NCBI GenBank assembly: GCA_900542505.1
Contig: UQNV01000026.1
Location: 1-30,127 of the forward strand
Direction of reading: 5' to 3'
From: an uncultured Alistipes sp.
Lineage (GTDB): Bacteria; Bacteroidota; Bacteroidia; Bacteroidales; Rikenellaceae
DNA length: 30,127 nucleotides
The position numbers and the translations under genes are program-made. Within the stretch, counting starts at the first letter, position 1; each line of letters opens with the position of its first letter. Positions 18,028 through 30,127 of this stretch are shown piece by piece. The notes under the pieces were generated by a model. The model searched no databases. It was not told where the DNA came from and saw only the letters and a list, made by a program, of their open reading frames with translations.

Positions 18028-20874
18028 ATGGCGGGTTTTCTGAGTGAAGTTGCTGCGGCGCTGTATGCCCGCTACGGGGAGGAGCTCTCATCGCTGGAGC
18101 TCCTCTTCCCGTCGCGGCGTGCCCGTATCTTCTTCGCCGACGCTCTTTCGGAACTGGTCGGCCGGCCGCTCTGGCAGCCCCGCTGGACGACCGTCGACGA
18201 GCTGATGTCGGAGATTTCGGGGCTGCGGACGGCCGACCGCGTGCGGCTGGTCACCGAGCTCTACAAAATCTACCGCGAATTCCACGACGAGCCCTTCGAC
18301 CGCTTCTACTTCTGGGGCGAGATGCTCCTCTCGGATTTCGACTCCATCGACAAGTACCGGGTCGATGCCGACATGCTGCTGCGCAACCTTTCGGAACTCA
18401 AGGAGCTCGAAGCCGACCTCTCGTACCTCACGCCCGAGCAGCAGCGGCTCGTCCGCTCCTTCTGGTCGACTTTCGGCGAGGAAGCCTACCTCTCGGAGGA
18501 GAAGCGCCGCTTCCTGGCGCTCTGGAAGACGCTCCGGCCGCTCTACCACCGCTTCCGCCAGCGTCTCGAGGAGCTGGGAATCGCCTATGGCGGCATGATG
18601 CAGCGCGCGGCCATCGAGCGGCTGCGCAGCGGCGAGTTCCGTTTCGACCGTCCGCGCCGCTTCGTCGTTGCGGGCTTCAATGCGTTGTCGGAGTGCGAGA
18701 AAGAGCTGTTCAAGCACCTGGCCTCGGCCGCCGGGGCCGAGTTCTACTGGGATTTCGACGACTATTACCGCGACGATACGGCGCAGGAGGCCGGCATGTT
18801 TGTCCGGCGCAACGTCGTGACCTTCCCGTCGGCTGGCGCCGTGTCGCACGACAACTTCCGCCGTGAGAAGGAGCTCGTCGCCGTTTCGTGCGTCTCGAAT
18901 GCCGTGCAGTGCAAGTACGTGGGCGAAATCCTGCGCGAACTGAACCGCACCTGCGGTCCGCTGGGCAAGGAGACCGCCGTGGTGCTCACCGACGAAAACC
19001 TGCTCCTGCCGCTGCTCTATGCCCTGCCCGAGGAGGTCGGGAAGGTCAACGTCACGATGGGTTATCCGCTGCGTCAGACGCTGGCCTACTCGTTTGTCGA
19101 GCGACTGGTCGAGCTGCAGCACCGCCGTCGGATGCAGTGCGGCGAGGCGCTCTTCTACCATGCCGACGTGACGGGGCTGCTGGCGCATCCCTATGTGTCG
19201 GAGTGCGACGCAGCGCTCACGCGCGAACTTGCCGACAAGGTGCTGCTCGAACGCCGGATTACGGTCGGTGCCGGATGGCTTGCGCGCAATCCCTTCCTCG
19301 AGCGTCTGTTCCGCCCGGCCGATGGCTGGCGCGAACTGTCCGACTGGCTGCTCGCGACGCTCGACGCCGTGGCGCGGCTTCCCTTCGAGGGTGACGACGT
19401 GCGCCGCCGCCGGGAGTTCCTGGCCGTCCTCTCGGAGGAAATCGTCAAGCTGCGCAACACGCTCGAGGAGTGCGACATCGAGCTGACGACCGAAATCTAT
19501 GTCTCGCTGCTGCGCCGCCACCTGCAGACGCTGCGTGTCCCCTTCGAGGGCGAACCGCTCGAGGGCATCCAGGTGATGGGTATCCTCGAGACGCGCAACC
19601 TCGACTTCGAACACGTCATCCTGCTGTCGATGCACGACGACAACTTCCCCGGCAGCTTCGCCGCCCAGTCGTCGTTCATCCCCTATAACCTGCGTGCCGC
19701 CTACGACCTGCCCACGCCCGAGCACCACGAGGGCGTCTACGCCTACTATTTCTACCGCCTCATCCAGCGGGCGCGGACGGTCCACATGCTCTATTGCTCG
19801 CATGCCGACGAGAAGTCGACCGGCGAGCCCAGCCGCTACATCCGCCAGCTCGACTACGAGAGCGGTTTTTCCGTGCGCCACGTCGAGGTCGGGGTCGATG
19901 TCAATCTGGCCGAGAATGCCCCGATTGAGGTGGCCAAGGACGACGACGTGATGCGTTCGCTCGAGCGCTTCGTCGACCCGGCGAGCCAGGCGGCACTCTC
20001 GCCGACGGCCTTCTTCCGTTACGTGGCCTGCCCGATGCGCTTCTACTTCTACTCGGTGGCTGGGCTGCGCGCCGACGACGAGGTGTCGGAGGAGGTCGAT
20101 GCCCCGATGTTCGGTACGATTCTCCACGCTGCCGTGCAGCGGCTCTACGGCAAGGTCCGCAACGAACTCCATCCGTCAGCAAGCCTTCGGGCGCTGATGC
20201 ACTCGGGTGAGGTGGCGCAGGCTGTCGAGGAGGCCATCAACGAACACTACCTCGGCGAACCGGGCGCCTCGTCGGCCGACTATACGGGCAATCTGCTGCT
20301 CGTGCGCGAAATCGTGGTCCGCTACCTGCACGACGGGGTGATGGCCTACGATGCGGCCAACGACCGTTTCACGGTCACAGGTCTCGAGGAGGAGGTGCGC
20401 TACGACTTCCCGTTCGAGGCCGGCGGGCGGGCGCTGCGGATGAAGTTCGCCGGCATTGCCGACCGCATCGACCGGCTCGACGACGGCTCGCTGCGCGTGG
20501 TCGACTACAAGACCGGTACGCCTCACCTCGAGTTCGACGGGCTCGGGAACCTCTTCCGCGGCGAGGGCAAACAGCGGCTGTCGAACATCCTCCAGACGCT
20601 GCTCTATGCCATGATGCTGCGCCACGCGCGCGGATGCGATGCCGTGCCGCAGCTCTACTACGTGCGCCGGATGCACGGGGCGGATTATTCGCCGCTGCTC
20701 GTCGACCGGGAGCTCGGCGTGCGGGGTGCCCCCTATTCGCTTTACGAAGGGCCTTTCGAGGAGCTGGTGCGCGAAACGCTGGCCGAGCTGTTCGACCGGG
20801 AGCAGCCTTTCCGCCAGTGTGCCGATGCCGATACGTGCCGTTACTGCGATTTCAACGTCATCTGCCGCCGCTGA
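18028..20874 (+). CDS. addB: PD-(D/E)XK nuclease with Fe-S cluster, AddB-like
   Basis: Partner of AddA, 948 residues. The C-terminal nuclease domain begins at SPTAFFRYVACPMRFYFYSV, with DYKTG (Asp826-Lys828) as catalytic centre. Cys668 together with Cys937, Cys940 and Cys946 (pattern CxxCx5C at the C-terminus) matches the split 4Fe-4S cluster that pins the nuclease domain in AddB. The N-terminal region resembles an inactivated helicase: where a Walker A motif would lie there is LLFPSRRARIFFAD with no GKT/GKS, as in RexB-type proteins. MGILETRNLDFEHVILLSMHDDNFPG corresponds to a helicase-like late motif. ATG 18028 lies 4 bases after the upstream stop. It is closed by a 16-bp hairpin. Confidence 0.88.
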   Translation: MAGFLSEVAAALYARYGEELSSLELLFPSRRARIFFADALSELVGRPLWQPRWTTVDELMSEISGLRTADRVRLVTELYKIYREFHDEPFDRFYFWGEMLLSDFDSIDKYRVDADMLLRNLSELKELEADLSYLTPEQQRLVRSFWSTFGEEAYLSEEKRRFLALWKTLRPLYHRFRQRLEELGIAYGGMMQRAAIERLRSGEFRFDRPRRFVVAGFNALSECEKELFKHLASAAGAEFYWDFDDYYRDDTAQEAGMFVRRNVVTFPSAGAVSHDNFRREKELVAVSCVSNAVQCKYVGEILRELNRTCGPLGKETAVVLTDENLLLPLLYALPEEVGKVNVTMGYPLRQTLAYSFVERLVELQHRRRMQCGEALFYHADVTGLLAHPYVSECDAALTRELADKVLLERRITVGAGWLARNPFLERLFRPADGWRELSDWLLATLDAVARLPFEGDDVRRRREFLAVLSEEIVKLRNTLEECDIELTTEIYVSLLRRHLQTLRVPFEGEPLEGIQVMGILETRNLDFEHVILLSMHDDNFPGSFAAQSSFIPYNLRAAYDLPTPEHHEGVYAYYFYRLIQRARTVHMLYCSHADEKSTGEPSRYIRQLDYESGFSVRHVEVGVDVNLAENAPIEVAKDDDVMRSLERFVDPASQAALSPTAFFRYVACPMRFYFYSVAGLRADDEVSEEVDAPMFGTILHAAVQRLYGKVRNELHPSASLRALMHSGEVAQAVEEAINEHYLGEPGASSADYTGNLLLVREIVVRYLHDGVMAYDAANDRFTVTGLEEEVRYDFPFEAGGRALRMKFAGIADRIDRLDDGSLRVVDYKTGTPHLEFDGLGNLFRGEGKQRLSNILQTLLYAMMLRHARGCDAVPQLYYVRRMHGADYSPLLVDRELGVRGAPYSLYEGPFEELVRETLAELFDREQPFRQCADADTCRYCDFNVICRR

Positions 20875-20914
20875 GTCAGGTCAGACGCCTCTCTTGCCGG
20901 AGAGCCCTCCATGC

Positions 20915-20954
20915 GAAACGACCCGCTGCATGCCGCCGTGCAGCGGGTCGTTTC
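20915..20954 (+). terminator. Hairpin terminator after addB
   Basis: GAAACGACCCGCTGCA (20915-20930) and TGCAGCGGGTCGTTTC (20939-20954) are a perfect 16-bp inverted repeat with an 8-base loop. The T-run is short (TTTC), but stem strength and position, 41 bases past the stop, favour a terminator. Confidence 0.75.
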
Positions 20955-21126
20955 CGTTCGGCCCGACATTTGCAGCTCCGCGTTCGAGGTTTTCATGTTC
21001 TGCCTCTGGCGCTTGGCGTCTGCTCCCGGTGTCTGCTCCCGGTGTCTGCATCCGAATCCGTATGGCCGGCATGTTCGGGAGCGAGGGGCGTCGTGCCGTT
21101 CGGGGCGGACAATGTCCCGGCGGAAT
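20955..21126. other. Intergenic region before the GHP lipoprotein
   Basis: No gene is supported. It contains the 13-base direct repeats at 21018-21056 and leads into the promoter at 21127. Confidence 0.5.
21018..21056. repeat. Tandem 13-base direct repeats
   Basis: GTCTGCTCCCGGT occurs at 21018-21030 and again, identical, at 21031-21043; a degenerate third copy GTCTGCATCCGAA follows at 21044-21056. It lies about 70 bases upstream of the promoter of the small lipoprotein; role unknown. Confidence 0.75.
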
Positions 21127-21156
21127 TTTGCGGTCTCGCAAAAAAGAGTAAATTTG
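21127..21156 (+). promoter_or_regulatory. Promoter of the GHP-repeat lipoprotein
   Basis: TTTG at 21127-21130 and TAAATTTG at 21149-21156 with an 18-base spacer. Transcription would start near 21163, leaving a leader of about 18 bases before the ATG at 21181. An in-frame ATG at 21169 would be nearly leaderless. Confidence 0.7.
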
Positions 21157-21180
21157 TATCGAGTAAAAATGTCGGCTCCC

Positions 21181-21441
21181 ATGAAACGCAAATTCTGGAG
21201 CATGTGGCTGCTTGTGCTGGCCCTGCTCGTTTCGTCCTGCGCCGTGAACCGTCCTGCGCGTCCCCATCCGCCCCGACCGCACCACGAGGTGCCGCCTCCG
21301 GGCCATCCGGGTCATCCCGGTCATCCCGGTCATCCTGGTCATCCTGGAAAACACAAAAAGCCGAAGAAGCCCAAAAAGCCGAAGAAGGCAAAGAAAAACC
21401 GCCGCGACCGGGAGCCGCTGGCGGATGGAAGGCTTCGTTGA
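21181..21441 (+). CDS. Small lipoprotein with (Gly-His-Pro)5 and Lys-Pro repeats
   Basis: Predicted lipoprotein of 86 residues, not recognised as a known family. A basic start (MKRK) and hydrophobic helix lead to lipobox VSSC with Cys20 as lipidated residue. The mature part is almost entirely low complexity: a Pro/His/Arg segment (RPHPPRPHHEVPPP), five exact Gly-His-Pro triplets (41-55, encoded by five 9-base repeats at 21301-21345), three KKP units (59-67), then a basic tail. The Gly-X-Y periodicity is collagen-like, and the His density suggests possible metal binding (inference). Strong positive charge could bind polyanions or peptidoglycan-associated polymers. It has its own promoter and ends 9 bases from a convergent gene. 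The start at 21181 fits the signal peptide; 21169 would add four residues. Confidence 0.65.
   Translation: MKRKFWSMWLLVLALLVSSCAVNRPARPHPPRPHHEVPPPGHPGHPGHPGHPGHPGKHKKPKKPKKPKKAKKNRRDREPLADGRLR
21301..21345 (+). repeat. Five 9-base repeats encoding Gly-His-Pro
   Basis: GGCCATCCG, GGTCATCCC, GGTCATCCC, GGTCATCCT, GGTCATCCT in tandem. Near-identity at DNA level means copy number could vary by slippage in frame. Confidence 0.9.
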
Positions 21442-21450
21442 GCCTCAGCC

Positions 21451-22062
21451 TCAGAGTTTGACGCGTATGTAGCCGGCGCCGCTTCGGCGTGCGGCCTCTA
21501 CGCCTATGTCCGAATCCTCGAAGACGAGCGTCTCTTCGGGGCGGCACCCCTCGCGCTTCATCGCTTCGAGAAAACACTCGGGGTCGGGCTTGCCGTGCAC
21601 GACGTCGGCTCCCGTCAGAATGCCGTCGACCCGCCCTTCGGGGCTCAGCTCCGCCGGGTCGTCCGGCCCGCCTATGCCCGTGTGCCGCATCACGTTGTGG
21701 ATGTTGTCGTAGCTCCCCGTCGAGACGACCCACACCCGGCCGCCGCCCTGTTGAAACTGGCGGCAGAACTCCCATAGCGGGCGGTTGAGCCGCACGCTGT
21801 CGAAATAGCGGGGATAGAGTTCGATTTTGCGCAGCCGCAGCCGCTCGCGCTCGGCGGGGTCGGCGATGCCGACGAGGCTCAGAAATTCGTTGCACCGCAT
21901 GCCGAAGTAGCGGGCCGCGTACTCCTCCTCGCTCAGATGGATGCCTGCTTCGCCGAGCGTTGCCAGGTAGGCGAGTGTGTTGGCGCGCCGCGTGTCGGCC
22001 AGCGTGCCGTCGAAGTCGAGCAGGATGAGTCGTATGCGGGTGTCGGTGCGGGGTGTGTTCAT
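21451..22062 (-). CDS. HAD-family phosphatase/phosphoglucomutase-like hydrolase
   Basis: Cytoplasmic HAD hydrolase of 203 residues. Motif I is DFDGTLAD with nucleophile Asp16 and acid/base Asp18; motif II is VVSTGS; motif III is GKPDPECF; motif IV is FEDSDIGVEAA. The helical cap inserted after motif I is the C1 type of phosphoglycolate phosphatases and beta-phosphoglucomutases, so the substrate is probably a small phosphorylated sugar or metabolite; which one cannot be told. It is last in a three-gene minus-strand run after two M23 peptidases (33-base gap). Its stop lies 9 bases from the end of the convergent lipoprotein gene with no terminator between. Confidence 0.85.
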   Translation of the reverse strand: MNTPRTDTRIRLILLDFDGTLADTRRANTLAYLATLGEAGIHLSEEEYAARYFGMRCNEFLSLVGIADPAERERLRLRKIELYPRYFDSVRLNRPLWEFCRQFQQGGGRVWVVSTGSYDNIHNVMRHTGIGGPDDPAELSPEGRVDGILTGADVVHGKPDPECFLEAMKREGCRPEETLVFEDSDIGVEAARRSGAGYIRVKL

Positions 22063-22095
22063 CGTTCGGGATTTTGCTGTCGGGGGTGGGAGCCG

Positions 22096-23046
22096 TCAGT
22101 CGAAGGACTGCATGCCCGACTGTGCGATGCGCATGATGCGCTGGTACTCGGCCGGGGAGAGCTCCATGAAGAAGTAGTGGATTGGGTCGACGCGCATGCC
22201 GTTGTGGCGCACCTCGTAGTGGAGGTGGGGCGAGAGCGAGAGGCCCGTGTCGCCCGAAAGGGCGATGATGTCGCCGCGGCGCACCTGCTGTCCCTTCGAG
22301 ACGTTGCTCTTCGACAGGTGGCTGTACGAAGTGGTGTAGCCGTTGCCGTGGTCGATGACCACCGTGAGCCCCTGCGTCGAGTTGCGGCGCACGACGTCGC
22401 TCACGCGGCCGTCGGCCGTGGCGAAGACGCGCGACCCCTCGGGGATGGTGTAGTCGACGCCCTGGTGGGCCTGCAGCGTTTTGTAGAAGGGGTGGATGCG
22501 CATGCCGTAGGAGGCCGTCAGCAGCGAAAGCTGCTTGTTGATGACGGGCTGGATGGCCGGGATGTTGTTGCAGCCGCGGCCCGTCGAGTCGATGCGCTGC
22601 TGGAGTTCCAGAAAGCTGTCGTTCAGCCGCGCAAGCTCCTGTTCCATGGCGTCGAGCCGGTCGCGGAATTCACGCTTGAGCTGCCGTGTGGGGCGGGTGA
22701 GCGTCTGCTCGTAGTCGAGGGCCTTCTCGCTGCTGCGCTCCGAACTGAAGTCGTAGGGCGTCGATTCGAAGAGGATGCCGAAGACGTTGCGGTCGCGCTG
22801 CGCGACGTTGTCCAGCACGCTGCGCAGGGTGTCGTAACGTGCCGAAAGCGCCTCGTATTCGCTGCGCAGCCGGTCGGTCGAGTGCTTGAGCTCGTATTCG
22901 ACCGGCGTGTCGAAGAAGAGCGAGAAACCGATGTAGTAGAGCACCGCCACGCCGGCCCATACGAACGTCTGGACCGTGAAGCGGATGATGTTCTGTTTGC
23001 GGCGCCGGCGCCGGCGAAGTCGTTCCAAATCCTTTTTTCCGGCCAT
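22096..23046 (-). CDS. M23 (LytM) family metallopeptidase, second of a tandem pair
   Basis: Membrane-anchored peptidoglycan endopeptidase-type protein of 316 residues. A very basic cytoplasmic start (RLRRRRRRK) precedes one membrane helix (about 21-46), then a coiled-coil-like periplasmic stalk (about 50-165, ELKHSTDRLRSEYEAL and RDRLDAMEQELARL). The C-terminal LytM domain has zinc-ligand motifs HQGVDYT (His194, Asp198) and HLHYEV (His276 as the last His ligand), and SYSHLS. The ligand set looks complete, so it may be an active hydrolase rather than a degenerate EnvC-like activator. It starts 2 bases after the stop of its paralogue, so the two are translated from one message. Confidence 0.88.
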   Translation of the reverse strand: MAGKKDLERLRRRRRRKQNIIRFTVQTFVWAGVAVLYYIGFSLFFDTPVEYELKHSTDRLRSEYEALSARYDTLRSVLDNVAQRDRNVFGILFESTPYDFSSERSSEKALDYEQTLTRPTRQLKREFRDRLDAMEQELARLNDSFLELQQRIDSTGRGCNNIPAIQPVINKQLSLLTASYGMRIHPFYKTLQAHQGVDYTIPEGSRVFATADGRVSDVVRRNSTQGLTVVIDHGNGYTTSYSHLSKSNVSKGQQVRRGDIIALSGDTGLSLSPHLHYEVRHNGMRVDPIHYFFMELSPAEYQRIMRIAQSGMQSFD

Positions 23047-23048
23047 GG

Positions 23049-24044
23049 CTATTCGAAGTTGGTTTCACGCATGGTCTCCTGGAGTCGGTCGTACTCCTCG
23101 GGAGTCATGTTGCGGTTGAAGTAATTGATGGGGTTGACGGGCTGCCCCTTGTGGATGACCTCGTAGTGGAGGTGCGGGGCGGTCGAGATGCCCGTGTTGC
23201 CCGTCTCGGCGATAATCTGGCCGCGCACGACGTGCTCGCCGGGCTTGACCAGCACACGGCTCAGATGGGCATAGCGCGTCTTGTAGCCGAAGGCGTGGTC
23301 GAGCAGCACCATGTGGCCGTAGCCGCCGTTGTAGCCTCTCTCCGACGCGATTTCGACCACCGCATCGCCGGTGGCATAGACGGGCGTTCCGCGGTCACAG
23401 CCGAAGTCGACGCCCTTGTGGGGGCGTATGTACCCCAGTACGGGGTGGACGCGGCGCAGGTTGAAGGCTCCGATGTGGTTGTTGTGCAGCGACTTGCGGT
23501 CGATTGGCCAGATGGCCGGAATGGCGGCCGACATCTTCTCCTTGTCCTTCGACAGCGCCTGCAGCTCGTCGAGCGAGACCGATTCGGCATAGAGCGTACG
23601 GGCCAGGCGGTCGAGGCTCATCCAGGTGCCGACCATCAGCGGTGCATAGTCGTCGTCGGCCATCGAGGCGTATTTCGATGCGGGGTAGGGCTCGGCGATG
23701 CCTTCGATGGCGAGCGTGTCGGTGGCGAAGAGCGAACGGTAGACATAGTTGTCGCGCTCGCGGATTTCGTCCACCTGGCGCTGGGCCGAACGGATGCGGT
23801 CCTGCAGAATCCGGTAACGGAGTTCCAGCTGGCGGTTCTCGCTCATGATGCGGTACATCTTGGGCGTGTAGAAGAAATAGGCGAAGAGCACGTTGGCAAT
23901 CGACACGAGGATGAATCCGATGAGCACCTTGCGCAGCAGCCGGTAGGTCCGCAGGCGGAAGGGGGCCGTCACCACCTCGCGCGTGAGGACCTGCGCCTCG
24001 TGCGTCAGGGCTTCGGTATCGAATATCTGCTCTTTTCGTGCCAT
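23049..24044 (-). CDS. M23 (LytM) family metallopeptidase, first of a tandem pair
   Basis: Paralogue of the next gene, 331 residues. A cytoplasmic N-terminus of about 38 residues is followed by one membrane helix (KVLIGFILVSIANVLFAYFF) and a coiled-coil stalk (NRQLELRYRILQDRIRSAQR). The LytM domain shows HKGVDFG (His209, Asp213), YAHLSRV and HLHYEV (His291, His293). Both proteins end similarly (PINYFNRNMTPEEYDRL here, PIHYFFMELSPAEYQRI in the neighbour), supporting tandem duplication. It begins 21 bases or so after the predicted transcription start. A role in cell-wall remodelling or division is inferred from the family. Confidence 0.88.
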   Translation of the reverse strand: MARKEQIFDTEALTHEAQVLTREVVTAPFRLRTYRLLRKVLIGFILVSIANVLFAYFFYTPKMYRIMSENRQLELRYRILQDRIRSAQRQVDEIRERDNYVYRSLFATDTLAIEGIAEPYPASKYASMADDDYAPLMVGTWMSLDRLARTLYAESVSLDELQALSKDKEKMSAAIPAIWPIDRKSLHNNHIGAFNLRRVHPVLGYIRPHKGVDFGCDRGTPVYATGDAVVEIASERGYNGGYGHMVLLDHAFGYKTRYAHLSRVLVKPGEHVVRGQIIAETGNTGISTAPHLHYEVIHKGQPVNPINYFNRNMTPEEYDRLQETMRETNFE

Positions 24045-24071
24045 GGCCTAAAAAACTGGGTCGCGATGGTG

Positions 24072-24103
24072 CAAATTTAGGTGAAAATGCGTAATTTTGC
24101 AAC
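24072..24103 (-). promoter_or_regulatory. Promoter of the M23 pair/HAD operon
   Basis: On the minus strand, GTTG (24100-24103) and TAAATTTG (24072-24079) are 20 bases apart, a good -33/-7 pair. On the plus strand TAATTTTG (24092-24099) is a possible -7 box toward alaS, so the two promoters may overlap. Confidence 0.6.
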
Positions 24104-24104
24104 C

Positions 24105-24321
24105 CGATACGGATAACGGTCGCACCCCGGCGGAAAGTGTGCCGCGAGGCAAATAAAATCGCCGGACGGAGGCCTCCGGAGCGGTATCGGACCCGTCGGC
24201 CGCATTGCGGCAGGGTGGTCGGCAGCTCCGTTGCGGGGCCTTTCCACGGCGGACCTCCGCCCGGCGGGAGGGCGCTCCGGCCGCCGTTTTGATTTTGGAT
24301 AATATCGGATAAACGTACAAT
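24105..24321 (+). other. GC-rich leader region before alaS
   Basis: No gene is seen. It has several self-complementary elements: CGGAGGCCTCCG (perfect palindrome near 24164-24175), GCCGC/GCGGC around ATT (near 24200-24212), and GGCGGA/TCCGCC (near 24249-24262). If alaS is transcribed from the box at 24092-24099, the leader is about 215 bases. No T-box features were recognised. Confidence 0.35.
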
Positions 24322-26943
24322 ATGGAATCGAACAAAATCCGCCAGGCATTTCTGGACTTCTTCGCAAGCAAGGGTCACGCCATCGTGCCTTCGGCGCCCA
24401 TGGTCGTCAAGAACGACCCCACACTCATGTTCACCAATGCGGGCATGAACCAGTTCAAGGATATCTTCCTGGGCAATGCCCCCCGCAAGTATCCCCGTGC
24501 GGCCGATACGCAGAAGTGTCTGCGCGTGTCGGGCAAGCACAACGACCTGGAGGAGGTAGGACACGACACCTACCACCACACCATGTTCGAGATGCTGGGC
24601 AACTGGTCCTACGGCGACTACTTCAAGAAGGAGGCGATTGCCTGGGCGTGGGAGCTGCTGCACGACGTCTACCGGCTGCCCGCCGAGCGGATGTATGCCA
24701 CCGTTTTCGAAGGCTCGGAGGAGGACGGCGTGCCGTTCGACCAGGAGGCCTACGACTACTGGCGCCAGTTCCTGCCCGAGGACCACATCATCCGCGGCAA
24801 CAAGCACGACAACTTCTGGGAGATGGGCGAAACGGGCCCCTGCGGACCCTGTTCGGAGATTCACTTCGACCTGCGTGACGAAGCGGAAATCGCCGCCAAA
24901 CCCGGCCGCGAGATGGTCAATGCCGGCCATCCGCAGGTCATCGAAATCTGGAACCTCGTCTTCATGCAGTTCAACCGCAAGGCCAACGGCTCGCTCGAAC
25001 CGCTGCCGGCGCGCAATGTCGATACGGGCATGGGCTTCGAGCGCCTCTGCATGATTCTCCAGGGCAAGAAGTCGAACTACGATACGGATGTCTTCCAGCC
25101 GACCATCCAGCGCATCTCGGCCCTCTCAGGCAAGCGCTACGGCGAGAACGAGCAGTGCGACGTGGCCATGCGCGTCATGGCAGACCACCTGCGTGCCATC
25201 GCCTTCTCGATTGCCGACGGACAGCTCCCCTCGAACGTCAAGGCGGGATATGTCATCCGCCGCATCCTGCGCCGTGCCGTGCGCTACGGCTATACCTACC
25301 TGGGCTTCACCGAGCCGACGCTCTGCAAGCTCGTCGCCGGTCTGGTGGAGCAGATGGGCGGCCAGTTCCCCGAACTGAAGGCGCAGCAGGCCCTCATCGA
25401 GAAGGTTATCGAGGAGGAGGAGTCGTCGTTCCTGCGCACGCTGGCCACGGGCATCAACCTGCTCGACGGCGTGATTGCACGCGTCAAGGCCGAGGGTATC
25501 TCCCGCATCTCGGGCAAGGATGCCTTCGTGCTCTACGATACGTTCGGCTTCCCGATTGACCTCACGGAGCTCATCGCCCGCGAACAGGGCGTCGAGGTCG
25601 ACCTCGAGGACTTCGACAAGGAGCTGCAGGCCCAGAAGGCCCGCTCGCGCAACGCCGCGGCGGTCGATACCGACGACTGGGTCGAGCTCTTCCCGCTGAA
25701 GGAGAGCATCTTCACGGGCTACGATACGCTTGTCGAGCAGGTGCGCATCGCGCGCTACCGCCGTGTGACCTCGAAGGGCCGCACGACCTACCAGCTGGTC
25801 TTCGACCGCACTCCGTTCTACGGCAACTCGGGCGGTCAGATTGGCGACGTGGGCTACATCCAGTCGGGCGACGAGCAGGTGGCCATCGTCGACACCGAGA
25901 AGGAGAACGGCCTGATTATCCACATCGTCGAGCATCTCCCGTCGGACCCCTCGGCCGAATTCACCGCGGTGGTCGATGCCGAAAAGCGTCAGAATGCCGC
26001 CAACAACCATACGGCCACCCACCTGCTGCACGCCGCGCTGCGCGAGGTGCTGGGCAAGCACGTCGAGCAGAAGGGCTCGATGGTGACCCCCGAGGCGCTG
26101 CGCTTCGACTTCTCGCACTTCCAGAAGGTGACTCCCGAGGAGTTGCGCCGCGTCGAGCAGCTGGTCAACCGCTCGGTGCGTGCCAACTATCCGCTCGAGG
26201 AGAACCGCAATGCCACGAAGGAGGAGGCCGAGCGCTGCGGAGCGATGATGCTCTTCGGCGAGAAGTACGGCGACCGCGTCCGCATGGTGAAGTTCGGCCC
26301 CTCGGTCGAGCTCTGCGGCGGTACGCATACCAGCGCCACGGGTAACATCGGCGTCTTCAAGATTGTCAACGAAAGTGCCATCTCGGCCGGCGTCCGCCGT
26401 ATCGAGGCGGTGACGGGCGAGGCGGCCGAGCGGCTCTTCTATGCTGCCGAGGATACGCTCCGCACGGTGGGCGAGCAGCTCCACAATTCGCAGGTGCTCC
26501 AGGCCGTCCGCAAGATGGTCGAGAGCAACGAGGCGCTCTCGAAGGAGGTCGAGACGATGCGCCGCGAGCAGGTGTCGCAGTGGGCCGAGAAGGTTCTCGC
26601 CTCGACGCCCGAGCGCGACGGCGTGCAGCTGATTGCCGTACAGCTGGAGCGTCCGGCCGACTTCGTCAAGGATTTGGCCTACGCCATGCGTCAGCGCGCG
26701 CCGAAGTTGGTCTTCGTCGTGGGTACGGTCGCAGGCGGCAAGCCGACGCTGACGGTCATGCTGGGCGAGGAGATTGCCGCACGCGGCGTCAATGCCGGTG
26801 CCGTGGTTCGCGAAGCCGCCAAGCTGATGCAGGGCGGCGGTGGCGGCCAGCCCTTCTTCGCTACGGCCGGCGGCAAGAACCCCGACGGCCTGCAGGCCGC
26901 CATGGACAAGGCCGTCGAACTGATTGGCGCTGCGCTCCGATAG
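24322..26943 (+). CDS. alaS: Alanyl-tRNA synthetase
   Basis: Class II aminoacyl-tRNA synthetase of 873 residues that charges tRNA-Ala. The N-terminal catalytic domain shows [28 protein letters not shown] and [19 protein letters not shown] (motif 2 region), with [14 protein letters not shown] further on. The editing domain carries zinc-site residues HTATH (His563, His567) and CGGTH (Cys665, His669), used to clear mischarged Ser and Gly. The C-Ala domain ends with [14 protein letters not shown]. Length is standard. The start fits the family N-terminus ([17 protein letters not shown]). Confidence 0.97.
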
Positions 26944-27141
26944 GGCGGGGCGTTGCGGGACGGCGCGCTTTTTGACGTATTGTCCCGAGAGATGTTCCGC
27001 CGCGCGGAGCCTGCCGGGACCTGCCGCAGCCTGACAAAACGGCAGCGGGAAGTGACAGCAGGGCGGATAAGGCGATGCCTTTGGCGTGCGTGCCGGAACA
27101 CCGGGAACGGAATAGAGAAAACGAAGCAAAAACCTACAATT

Positions 27142-28668
27142 ATGGCAAACAAAGTTCTTTTGATGATTCTCGATGGCTGGGGAAACGGCCATCATGACAA
27201 GGCGGATGTCATCTCGACGGTGCATCCCGCATACATTTCGGCCATGACCGAGCACTATCCCCACGCCGAGCTGCGCACCGACGGCGAGAACGTCGGTCTG
27301 CCCGACGGCCAGATGGGTAACTCGGAGGTGGGCCACCTCAACATCGGCGCCGGCCGCGTGGTCTATCAGGACCTCGTGAAAATCAACCGCGCCTGCGCCG
27401 ACAACTCCATCATGCAGAACCCCGAGGTGAAGGCCGCCTTCGAATACGCCAAGGAGCACGGCGTCGGCATGCACTTCATGGGTCTGACTTCGGACGGCGG
27501 CGTGCACTCGTCGCTCGACCACCTCTTCAAGCTCTGCGACATCGCCGCCGAGTACGGCCTCGAGAAGACCTTCGTGCACTGCTTCATGGACGGCCGCGAT
27601 ACCGACCCGCACAGCGGCAAGGGCTTCATCGCGCAGCTCGAGCAGCATCTGGCCGCCACGACCGGCAAGATTGCCACCGTCATCGGCCGCTACTACGCCA
27701 TGGACCGCGACAAGCGCTGGGAGCGTGTGAAGATTGCCTACGACGCACTGGTGAACGGCATCGGCGAGCACTCGTCCGACATGGTCGAGGCGATGCAGAA
27801 GTCCTATGACGAGGGTGTGACCGACGAGTTCGTCAAGCCCTTTGTCCGCATCGACGAGAACGGCCAGCCCATCGGCATGATTCAGCCCAACGACGTGGTG
27901 ATTTTCTTCAACTACCGCAACGACCGCGCCAAGGAGCTGACCATTGTCCTCACGCAGCAGGACATGCCCGAGGCCGGCATGCACACCATGCCGCTCTACT
28001 ACTGCTGCATGACCCCCTACGACGCCAAGTTCACGGGCCTGCACATCCTCTTCGACAAGGAGAACGTGCCCGACACCATCGGCGAGTGGGTCTCGAAGCA
28101 GGGCCTCAAGCAGCTGCGCATCGCCGAGACGGAAAAGTATGCCCACGTGACCTTCTTCCTCAACGGCGGCCGCGAGGACAAGTTCGAGGGCGAGGAGCGT
28201 ATCCTGGTCGCTTCGCCCAAGGTGGCGACCTATGACCTGCAGCCCGAGATGTCGGCTCCGGAGGTTGCCGACAAGCTGGTGGCGGCTCTGGGCGAGCGCA
28301 AGTTCGACTTCATCTGCCTGAACTTCGCCAACGGCGACATGGTGGGCCACACGGGCGTCTACGACGCGATTGTGAAGGCCGTAAAGGCCGTTGACGGCTG
28401 CGTTGAGAAGGTAGTCGAGGCTGCCAAGGCCAACGGCTACGAGGTGGTGATGATTGCCGACCACGGCAACGCCGACAATGCCGTCAATCCCGACGGTACG
28501 CCCAATACGGCGCACTCGCTCAACCCGGTGCCCATCGTGGTGGTTTCGGACCGCGTGAAGTCGGTGCACAACGGCATTCTGGCCGACGTGGCTCCCACGG
28601 TGCTCAAGCTGATGGGTCTCGAGCAACCCGCCGAGATGACCGGCAAGGCACTCGTCGAGATGAAGTAG
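27142..28668 (+). CDS. gpmI: 2,3-bisphosphoglycerate-independent phosphoglycerate mutase
   Basis: Glycolytic enzyme of 508 residues that interconverts 3- and 2-phosphoglycerate using a phosphoserine intermediate and two Mn2+ ions. The alkaline phosphatase-like domain shows metal ligand Asp11 in LMILDGWG, catalytic Ser61 in [14 protein letters not shown], and the C-terminal metal sites [11 protein letters not shown] and [10 protein letters not shown]. The phosphotransferase domain has [17 protein letters not shown] and [10 protein letters not shown]. Length matches the family. ATG 27142 gives the standard start ([13 protein letters not shown]); upstream in-frame codons are not family-like. A 198-base gap separates it from alaS and no consensus promoter was found there, so co-transcription with alaS is possible. 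Confidence 0.97.
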
Positions 28669-28708
28669 CACGCACGGTTAACCGCACGACGGATTCGGTT
28701 CCGTCCGC

Positions 28709-28747
28709 GACGCCCCTCCGCACAACAGCGGCGGGGCGTCTTTGTTT
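28709..28747 (+). terminator. Intrinsic terminator after gpmI
   Basis: GACGCCCC (28709-28716) pairs with GGGGCGTC (28733-28740); inside, CCGC pairs with GCGG across one mismatch. TTTGTTT follows (28741-28747). Confidence 0.88.
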
Positions 28748-28833
28748 CCGGCGGCGGGGTGGGTGACGCGGCGCGGCGCGGGGTGTTGCCGTCCTTGCGG
28801 ATGCCTTCGTTCCCGGCGGGGTGAGCCATACGC

Positions 28834-28874
28834 AAATTCCCGAAGCAAAGAACGATGCTCCGGGAATTTTTTTG
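28834..28874 (+). terminator. Second terminator-like hairpin after gpmI
   Basis: AAATTCCCG (28834-28842) pairs with CGGGAATTT (28861-28869), with a long 18-base interior that can pair AGC/GCT, ending in seven T residues. It may be a backup terminator; no gene lies between it and the first one. Confidence 0.65.
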
Positions 28875-28958
28875 TTTCGGGGCGTACCTCGTCCGGACCG
28901 CCGGTGGCCGCGGACATGGGGCGCAGCTCCATCCCGACAGCGTGAAGCAGATAAATTG

Positions 28959-28994
28959 AACAGCCCGGAGAATTCTGAAATTCTCCGGGCTGTT
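28959..28994. terminator. Terminator of the right-end gene (minus strand)
   Basis: AACAGCCCGGAGAATT (28959-28974) and AATTCTCCGGGCTGTT (28979-28994) form a perfect 16-bp stem with loop CTGA. It lies 45 bases beyond the stop codon of the minus-strand gene and can work in both directions. Confidence 0.85.
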
Positions 28995-29039
28995 CCCTTA
29001 AGTGCCTTGTTGTTTTATTTGACTCGCTCTTTTTTGCTG

Positions 29040-30078
29040 TTACCACGGACGAGTGAGCTCTCCGGTCCAGGTTCCCTTGAAGTGCTTGGGCTCCTCCTGT
29101 CCGTCGAGGAAGTCAAAGGTAATGGTGTAGGTGCCGTCGTCGTTCTTCGTGACTTCGACCTCGCCGTCGGTAGCGGCTCCTGCCCAGCGAAGGGTGCCTT
29201 CATCGTAGTGTTTAAAGTAGGTACCCGTACCGAATCCGTCGACGCCGGTATCTCTCTTGTAGGTACCCATTCGTGCCGTACCGACTTCGTTGCTGTCGCT
29301 AATCTTGTATACGCCGGGAACGGGCTCCTCGGTTTCATCCAGATTATTTACGATTTCAATGTACAGCTGGTCTCCGGCATATCTCCAGTTTTCATTGTAC
29401 TGCAGGAATTGGAACTGCCAGGTATAGGCATCCGAAACCGTATATTTGCTGCCCATGACCTGAGTCTTGATATTCTGGGCGTCGAACGTCATTTCGAGGT
29501 CCTCCGGAAGGTCCCACTCGTTTTTCTCAATCACCTTCGGGGCGTCCTGCACGACGATGGGGCCCGTATAGCTGCCCGTCATCTTCTTGCCCTTGTCGGT
29601 CGTCAGGTCGTAGGTCAGCGTGTAGTTGTCGCCGTTCTTCTCAATCTCGACCGTACCCGACTGGGCCAGACCCACTTGGATGGCTGTCGTGTTGTCGGGG
29701 TCGTAGTAATACTTCAAGTTGGTGCTGCTCGGGAAGGGTGCATTCATGAAGTTGATGCAGCCGCCTGCAAGGAAGGTATAGTCTGAGGCCTCTTCGTCGT
29801 TGGTGATGGTGAAGGTGCCGGGGATGAGGTTGCCGTCGTTGTCAAACTCGCCGCGGCCCACGAAAACCAGCACGCTCGAGGGCGGAACCAGCCAGTTATC
29901 CTCGTCAAGCTTCTCGTAGAGGGTGATGTTCAGATTGGCTTTATTGTCGTAGCTCTCTCCGCTCGCCGTCGTCAGATACCACGAGTAGACGCTGTTCATG
30001 GTCGTGTTCATGTCCTGCTTCAGCCACTCGATACTCTTGTTGTAATAGGAGTAGATGCCTTCGTAGACGGTGTGGAAG
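29040..30078 (-). CDS. Partial Bacteroidales exported protein with duplicated beta domain
   Basis: C-terminal 346 or so residues of a larger protein; the N-terminus is missing because the contig ends at 30078. Composition is rich in Asp, Asn, Thr, Tyr and Trp, as in Bacteroidales surface lipoproteins, but the signal peptide is not visible. Two tandem domains of about 160 residues can be aligned by eye: the first has NLIPGTFTITNDEE and GTVEIEKNGDNYTLTYDL then GSYTGPI; the second has EPVPGVYKISDSNE and GEVEVTKNDDGTYTITFDF then GTWTGEL, the last near the C-terminus. Function is not recognised. The apparent Met start at 30107 and its first ten residues (MGSEMCIRDS) come from adapter sequence and are not part of the protein. 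Confidence 0.75.
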
Positions 30079-30127
30079 CTGTCTCTTATACACATCTCCG
30101 AGCCCACGAGACATCTCAGGATCTCGT
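30079..30127 (+). other. Nextera (Tn5) sequencing adapter left at the contig end
   Basis: From 30079 the sequence is the Tn5 mosaic end CTGTCTCTTATACACATCT (30079-30097), then CCGAGCCCACGAGAC (30098-30112), the rest of the Nextera read-2 adapter. Next come 8 bases, ATCTCAGG (30113-30120), in the i7 index position, then ATCTCGT (30121-30127), the beginning of the P7 flowcell sequence. The order is exactly that of a read running through a short insert into the adapter. These bases are synthetic, not genomic. Confidence 0.98.

Follow-up and report, generated by a model that had tools for sequence, protein, structure and literature searches.

Among described systems, the closest to the sequence reported here is contamination by Nextera read-through, the sequencing of adapter beyond the end of an insert. 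The succession mosaic end, CCGAGCCCACGAGAC, i7 index and ATCTCGTATGCC onwards is printed in PMC10810209, and the read-trimming settings in PMC6460022 list the mosaic end together with both adapters. Appendix B of PMC7589761 lists ATCTCAGG as index N715; the primers given there carry a different read-2 part and the identical index code. A second point of comparison is provided by database proteins that contain translated adapter, in the form of the peptides GSEMCIRD(S/R) and GLGDVYKRQ. Throughout the text, “the window” is the whole stretch of DNA analysed (30,127 bases), whose best protein match is named uncultured Alistipes sp.

Nextera Adapter Parts at the End of the Contig

The window closes with 49 bases (30079..30127) made up of four successive Nextera adapter parts, with 0 mismatches:

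30079..30097, plus strand: Nextera adapter, Tn5 mosaic end; all 19 bases match exactly
30098..30112, plus strand: Nextera read-2 adapter, remainder; all 15 bases match exactly
30113..30120, plus strand: i7 index ATCTCAGG, 8 bases, listed as N715 in a published index list
30121..30127, plus strand: P7 side, first 7 bases (ATCTCGT, 7/7 bases); the window ends within P7

A sequence-only reading of this DNA had described an error-free succession of mosaic end, read-2 adapter, i7 index and P7 start, with an index named as Nextera N715; all 49 of the 49 bases were indeed found in that order, and the index bears this name in Appendix B of PMC7589761. The mosaic end and the CCGAGCCCACGAGAC directly after it match over 34/34 bases, and they are followed by an index of the published set and by the start of ATCTCGTATGCC. 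Allowing up to 3 mismatches, the 19-base mosaic end is present in 1 copy in the window versus 0 in 100 shuffles, and the chance of finding 41 fixed bases is about 1e-20 (2 × 30127 positions, equal base frequencies); none of the four exact adapter cores has a further copy elsewhere in the window. The adapter points outward and runs up to 30127, the last base of the window, whose end we took as the contig end. The window shares, thus, the parts, their order, the outward direction and the end position of Nextera read-through contamination, with no substantial difference from it. A megablast of 30060-30127 matched 41 phage records and 9 plasmid records; the same query found no match in E. coli complete genomes.

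A Gene Cut at Base 30078

The minus-strand ORF at 29040-30107 retains the 3′ portion of a gene; three features can be told apart here:

29040..30078, minus strand: remainder of an Alistipes gene, 345 codons, the stop and one base of the preceding codon; first 164 codons gone (homologues, locus L121)
29988..30078, minus strand: genomic tip with an allele unlike the rest of the gene, possibly another strain's read (residue differences versus homologue P0001)
30079..30125, minus strand: adapter-encoded false peptide EILRCLVGSEMCIRD with AG of the codon that follows; GTG 30107 and ATG 30095 may act as false starts (translation)

No Pfam family was found in the cut gene at E 1e-3; P0060, a distant homologue (36% identical), carries PF13004. 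The closest homologue, P0001, shares 99% identity (its longest contig measures 156 kb), and a homologue start such as its MKKYLTLAIALFAAVALQSC may be read as a putative lipoprotein signal. A protein search of the species genomes confirmed a single locus (1 of 7 stretches), L121 of Alistipes sp. Marseille-P5061, where the gene runs without a break through 164 further codons upstream of the cut point. Exactly 164 residues also stand ahead of this point in 35 of 44 homologues; the last gene is, thus, truncated as had been claimed, with 164 codons absent.

At the DNA level, L121 aligns with 19596-30078 of the window in five collinear blocks (78-94%), along with two short off-diagonal matches of about 75%. 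The last block (27094-30078, 88.6%) ends exactly at 30078: 56 of the 60 bases before this position agree, versus 12 of the 49 after it, which is the level of chance. As the alignment ends there and agreement drops to chance, the proposal that the real sequence stops at 30078 turns out to be right to the base, with one relative as the reference by DNA. At the protein level, this stop of homology at the first adapter base is backed by 44 homologues: a Thr precedes FHTVYEG in all 44 of those spanning the junction, where the window has an artefact Ser (63 homologues were examined, of which 44 contain FHTVYEG preceded by 9 or more residues and the other 19 are without that form).

On the minus strand, the reading frame stays open over 30125-29040, and the GTG at 30107 yields (M)GSEMCIRDS. 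Of the artefact peptide MGSEMCIRDS, as first described, the GSEMCIRD part is encoded by the adapter and this part of the description stands; the tenth residue, S, is partly genomic, as the adapter supplies the first two bases of its codon (30080-30078) and the genome the third, 30078. By itself, the adapter sets GSEMCIRD and, of the following codon, no more than the AG. Read inward, it offers two open frames, LVGSEMCIRD and SRGLGDVYKRQ, the third being closed by a stop; with two of the three minus-strand adapter frames open, the cut gene gains a false N-terminal peptide. As no stop lies between this frame and the contig end, a gene caller may return a partial gene beginning with EILRCLVGSEMCIRDS; going by the translation, it may also place the start at GTG 30107 or at ATG 30095.

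An Unusual Allele at the Genomic Tip

One has to consider, at somewhat less than even odds, that the adapter does account for 49 bases but that the last ~90 genomic bases (29988-30078) are another strain's read joined at the tip. Indeed, the 345-residue remainder differs from P0001 at only 4 residues (10, 28, 29 and 30), all adjoining the junction within the first 30; NSVYSWYL followed by TTASGES, the combination present in the window, occurs in 0 of the 48 homologues with YSWYL, and both proteins having TTASGES carry TCAYSWYL before it; four proteins (P0006, P0010, P0012 and P0013) are identical to the window over the 35-residue tip and diverge beyond it. However, the homologues are generally mosaic-looking, so that a natural mosaic or a real recombinant allele is possible at the tip, and P0001 is a cluster representative, not the window's strain.

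Origin of the Tail

As to the 49 bases themselves, we consider it practically certain (about 99%) that they are untrimmed Nextera read-through from a short insert, assembled into the contig end. In a transposase-made (Nextera type) Illumina library, a fragment would have had an insert shorter than the read and ending at base 30078; the read would have passed through this insert into the mosaic end, the read-2 adapter, the i7 index and P7. With the reads left untrimmed, the assembler would have taken the adapter as sequence, the contig would stop inside it, and its open minus-strand frames would lengthen the cut gene with the false N-terminal peptide. We observed the four parts of the adapter and the order in which they come, the boundary, and the continuation of the gene in relatives; from these we infer the short insert, the absent trimming and the behaviour of the assembler.

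Contamination of the DNA by a cloning vector or a reporter construct would be a highly improbable source of the tail, even if constructs with built-in adapters do exist (PMC10810209). An index followed by P7 is what a finished sequencing library looks like, and the join falls inside a bacterial gene; we rejected a vector on these grounds. More improbable still, and likewise rejected, is a genuine Tn5/IS50 end or some other mobile element of natural origin: the mosaic end is derived from Tn5, but here it is directly followed by the read-2 adapter, index and P7 bases, a succession not known from any natural element, the exact 34 bases were found in 0 of the 180 genomes of the genus of Alistipes sp. 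Marseille-P5061, and the gene is unbroken in L121. The tail is an ordinary laboratory artefact, and no biology is hidden in it.

The Same Adapter in Viral Contigs and Other Genomes

The adapter artefact recurs in public sequence databases. Scanning IMG/VR with the 34-base adapter gave at least 120 stretches (L001-L120), with 123 junctions among the matches listed. On the i7 side, 121 of these 123 listed junctions point outward with the adapter starting at most 90 bases from the contig end, the exceptions being L059, where it is internal, and L114, where it starts 183 bases before the end. For the i5-side counterpart, 116 of 120 IMG/VR junctions lie no more than 90 bases from where the retrieved stretch ends. 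No inward-pointing adapter was found within 90 bases of an end among the IMG/VR junctions, and the control, in which the adapter was reversed without complementing it, gave 0 matches in IMG/VR.

Once L059 was dropped, 105 of the 122 remaining junctions among the matches listed had a tail of at least 8 bases, long enough for the index to be counted. In this listed set, a single index was present in all tails for 13 of the 15 samples with two or more, and 277 of 303 same-sample pairs had the same index, versus 48.4 on average and at most 68 across 200 shuffles; this agreement within samples means that the 8 bases act as sample labels. The one respect in which the window stands apart is that ATCTCAGG is absent from the 12 indices seen in these 105 listed junctions; the adapter followed by ATCTCAGG and the P7 start gave 0 matches in viral contigs and, hence, revealed no sister contig of the same library.

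Among the 123 junctions listed, the two open adapter frames hold at least 60 residues in 24 and 25 cases and the third frame in 0, and GSEMCIRD is followed by S or R in all 123, as a codon beginning with AG requires. The length of the tails, from adapter start to end, peaks at 76 bases (18/123 among the matches listed), probably reflecting the read length or the word size of the assembler; tails of 49 bases, as in the window, account for 8/123.

Database screening would account for the absence of the exact adapter from the 180 genomes of the genus. Alistipes sp. Marseille-P5061 (G001) contains 8 near-matches to the mosaic end with 1-2 mismatches (L244-L251), versus 0 in the backward control; 7 of the 8 lie 1500 bases or more inside a contig. 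Behind 5 of them come the read-2 adapter and the index CGTACTAG, and behind 2 the i5-side adapter, with errors. As this genome had been scored clean by the exact 34-base search, exact screening misses error-bearing adapters.

The adapter was also seen in three phage records titled complete genome. In MK327946.1 (Escherichia phage vB_EcoM_G4507), it lies between two CDS (L238, 1501-1534), each bearing the name putative baseplate hub subunit and tail lysozyme, and the gene appears to be split by it. In MK327945.1 (L242, 801-834) and MH973725.1 (L243, 801-834), it lies inside an annotated CDS.

The Adapter Peptide in Protein Databases

It had been suggested that proteins beginning with the peptide should be unrelated to one another. 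With the window's own frame as query (37 of 42 candidates at E ≤ 10), the expected spread was not seen, as the matches listed comprised only known Alistipes homologues; we, therefore, used an adapter-fused ORF from a viral contig, with a longer adapter stretch, which matched 2588 proteins at E ≤ 10 out of 2604 candidates (one size class). All the following statistics rest on the best 120 of the 2588 proteins. GSEMCIRD is present in 120 of these 120; the next residue is S in 70 of them and R in 46, with other residues in the remaining 4. In the window, the frame likewise gives LVGSEMCIRDS; KQKTAYE, from a fuller P7, is found in 116 of the best 120, as in the query, whereas the window stops 7 bases into P7. 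The peptide is not always at the very N-terminus: GSEMCIRD begins at residue 7 to 125, mostly after more adapter translation. An artefact label is found on 0 of the 120, and most of them are nameless.

When we compared what remains of these best 120 proteins after the first GSEMCIRD, 95 of 5050 pairs (101 remainders) seemed related, because of second adapter copies or adapter translation at the other end, which concern 25 of the 120. We then cut after the last GSEMCIRD and before any other-end adapter translation, keeping remainders of at least 20 residues; 0 of 4371 pairs (94 remainders) were related at E 1e-3. Unrelated proteins do carry the peptide, and this artefact is common in protein databases. 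Adapter-made residues are also present in two deposited phage genes: VUF53723.1 (LR597637.1; L239, 1333-1515) begins with an adapter-made (M)YKRQ, and VUF54222.1 (LR597652.1; L241, 3-83) begins with VSYTHLRAHET, an outward frame of the adapter.

The 34-base adapter itself does appear in print, in 45 papers of the literature searched. We did not find MCIRDS, SEMCIRD, GDVYKRQ, CIRDRF or MSRGLGDVYKRQ printed there, which is weak evidence given that most subscription papers lie outside this literature, and among the titles and abstract starts on adapters in assemblies or translated adapters, none describes the peptide.

Implications

For the Alistipes genome, the finding has clean-up value only: the contig is to be trimmed at 30078 and its last gene marked as being without a start, and the last ~90 genomic bases, which may be untrustworthy, are to be handled with care. 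Beyond this genome, adapter translation very probably forms a wide, unlabelled false “protein family”, made up on the i7 side of the frames GSEMCIRD(S/R) and GLGDVYKRQ, in which the first genomic base would decide the tenth residue of (M)GSEMCIRD(S/R), error-bearing copies would evade exact screening, as in Marseille-P5061, and short exact matches could link proteins that have nothing in common. GSEMCIRD is, thus, a handy tag, and a predicted protein holding it is likely adapter-made in that part, as seen in the best 120 of 2588 proteins; GLGDVYKRQ, from the other open frame, should by inference serve likewise. Word-based protein searches can join unrelated proteins via such adapter peptides.
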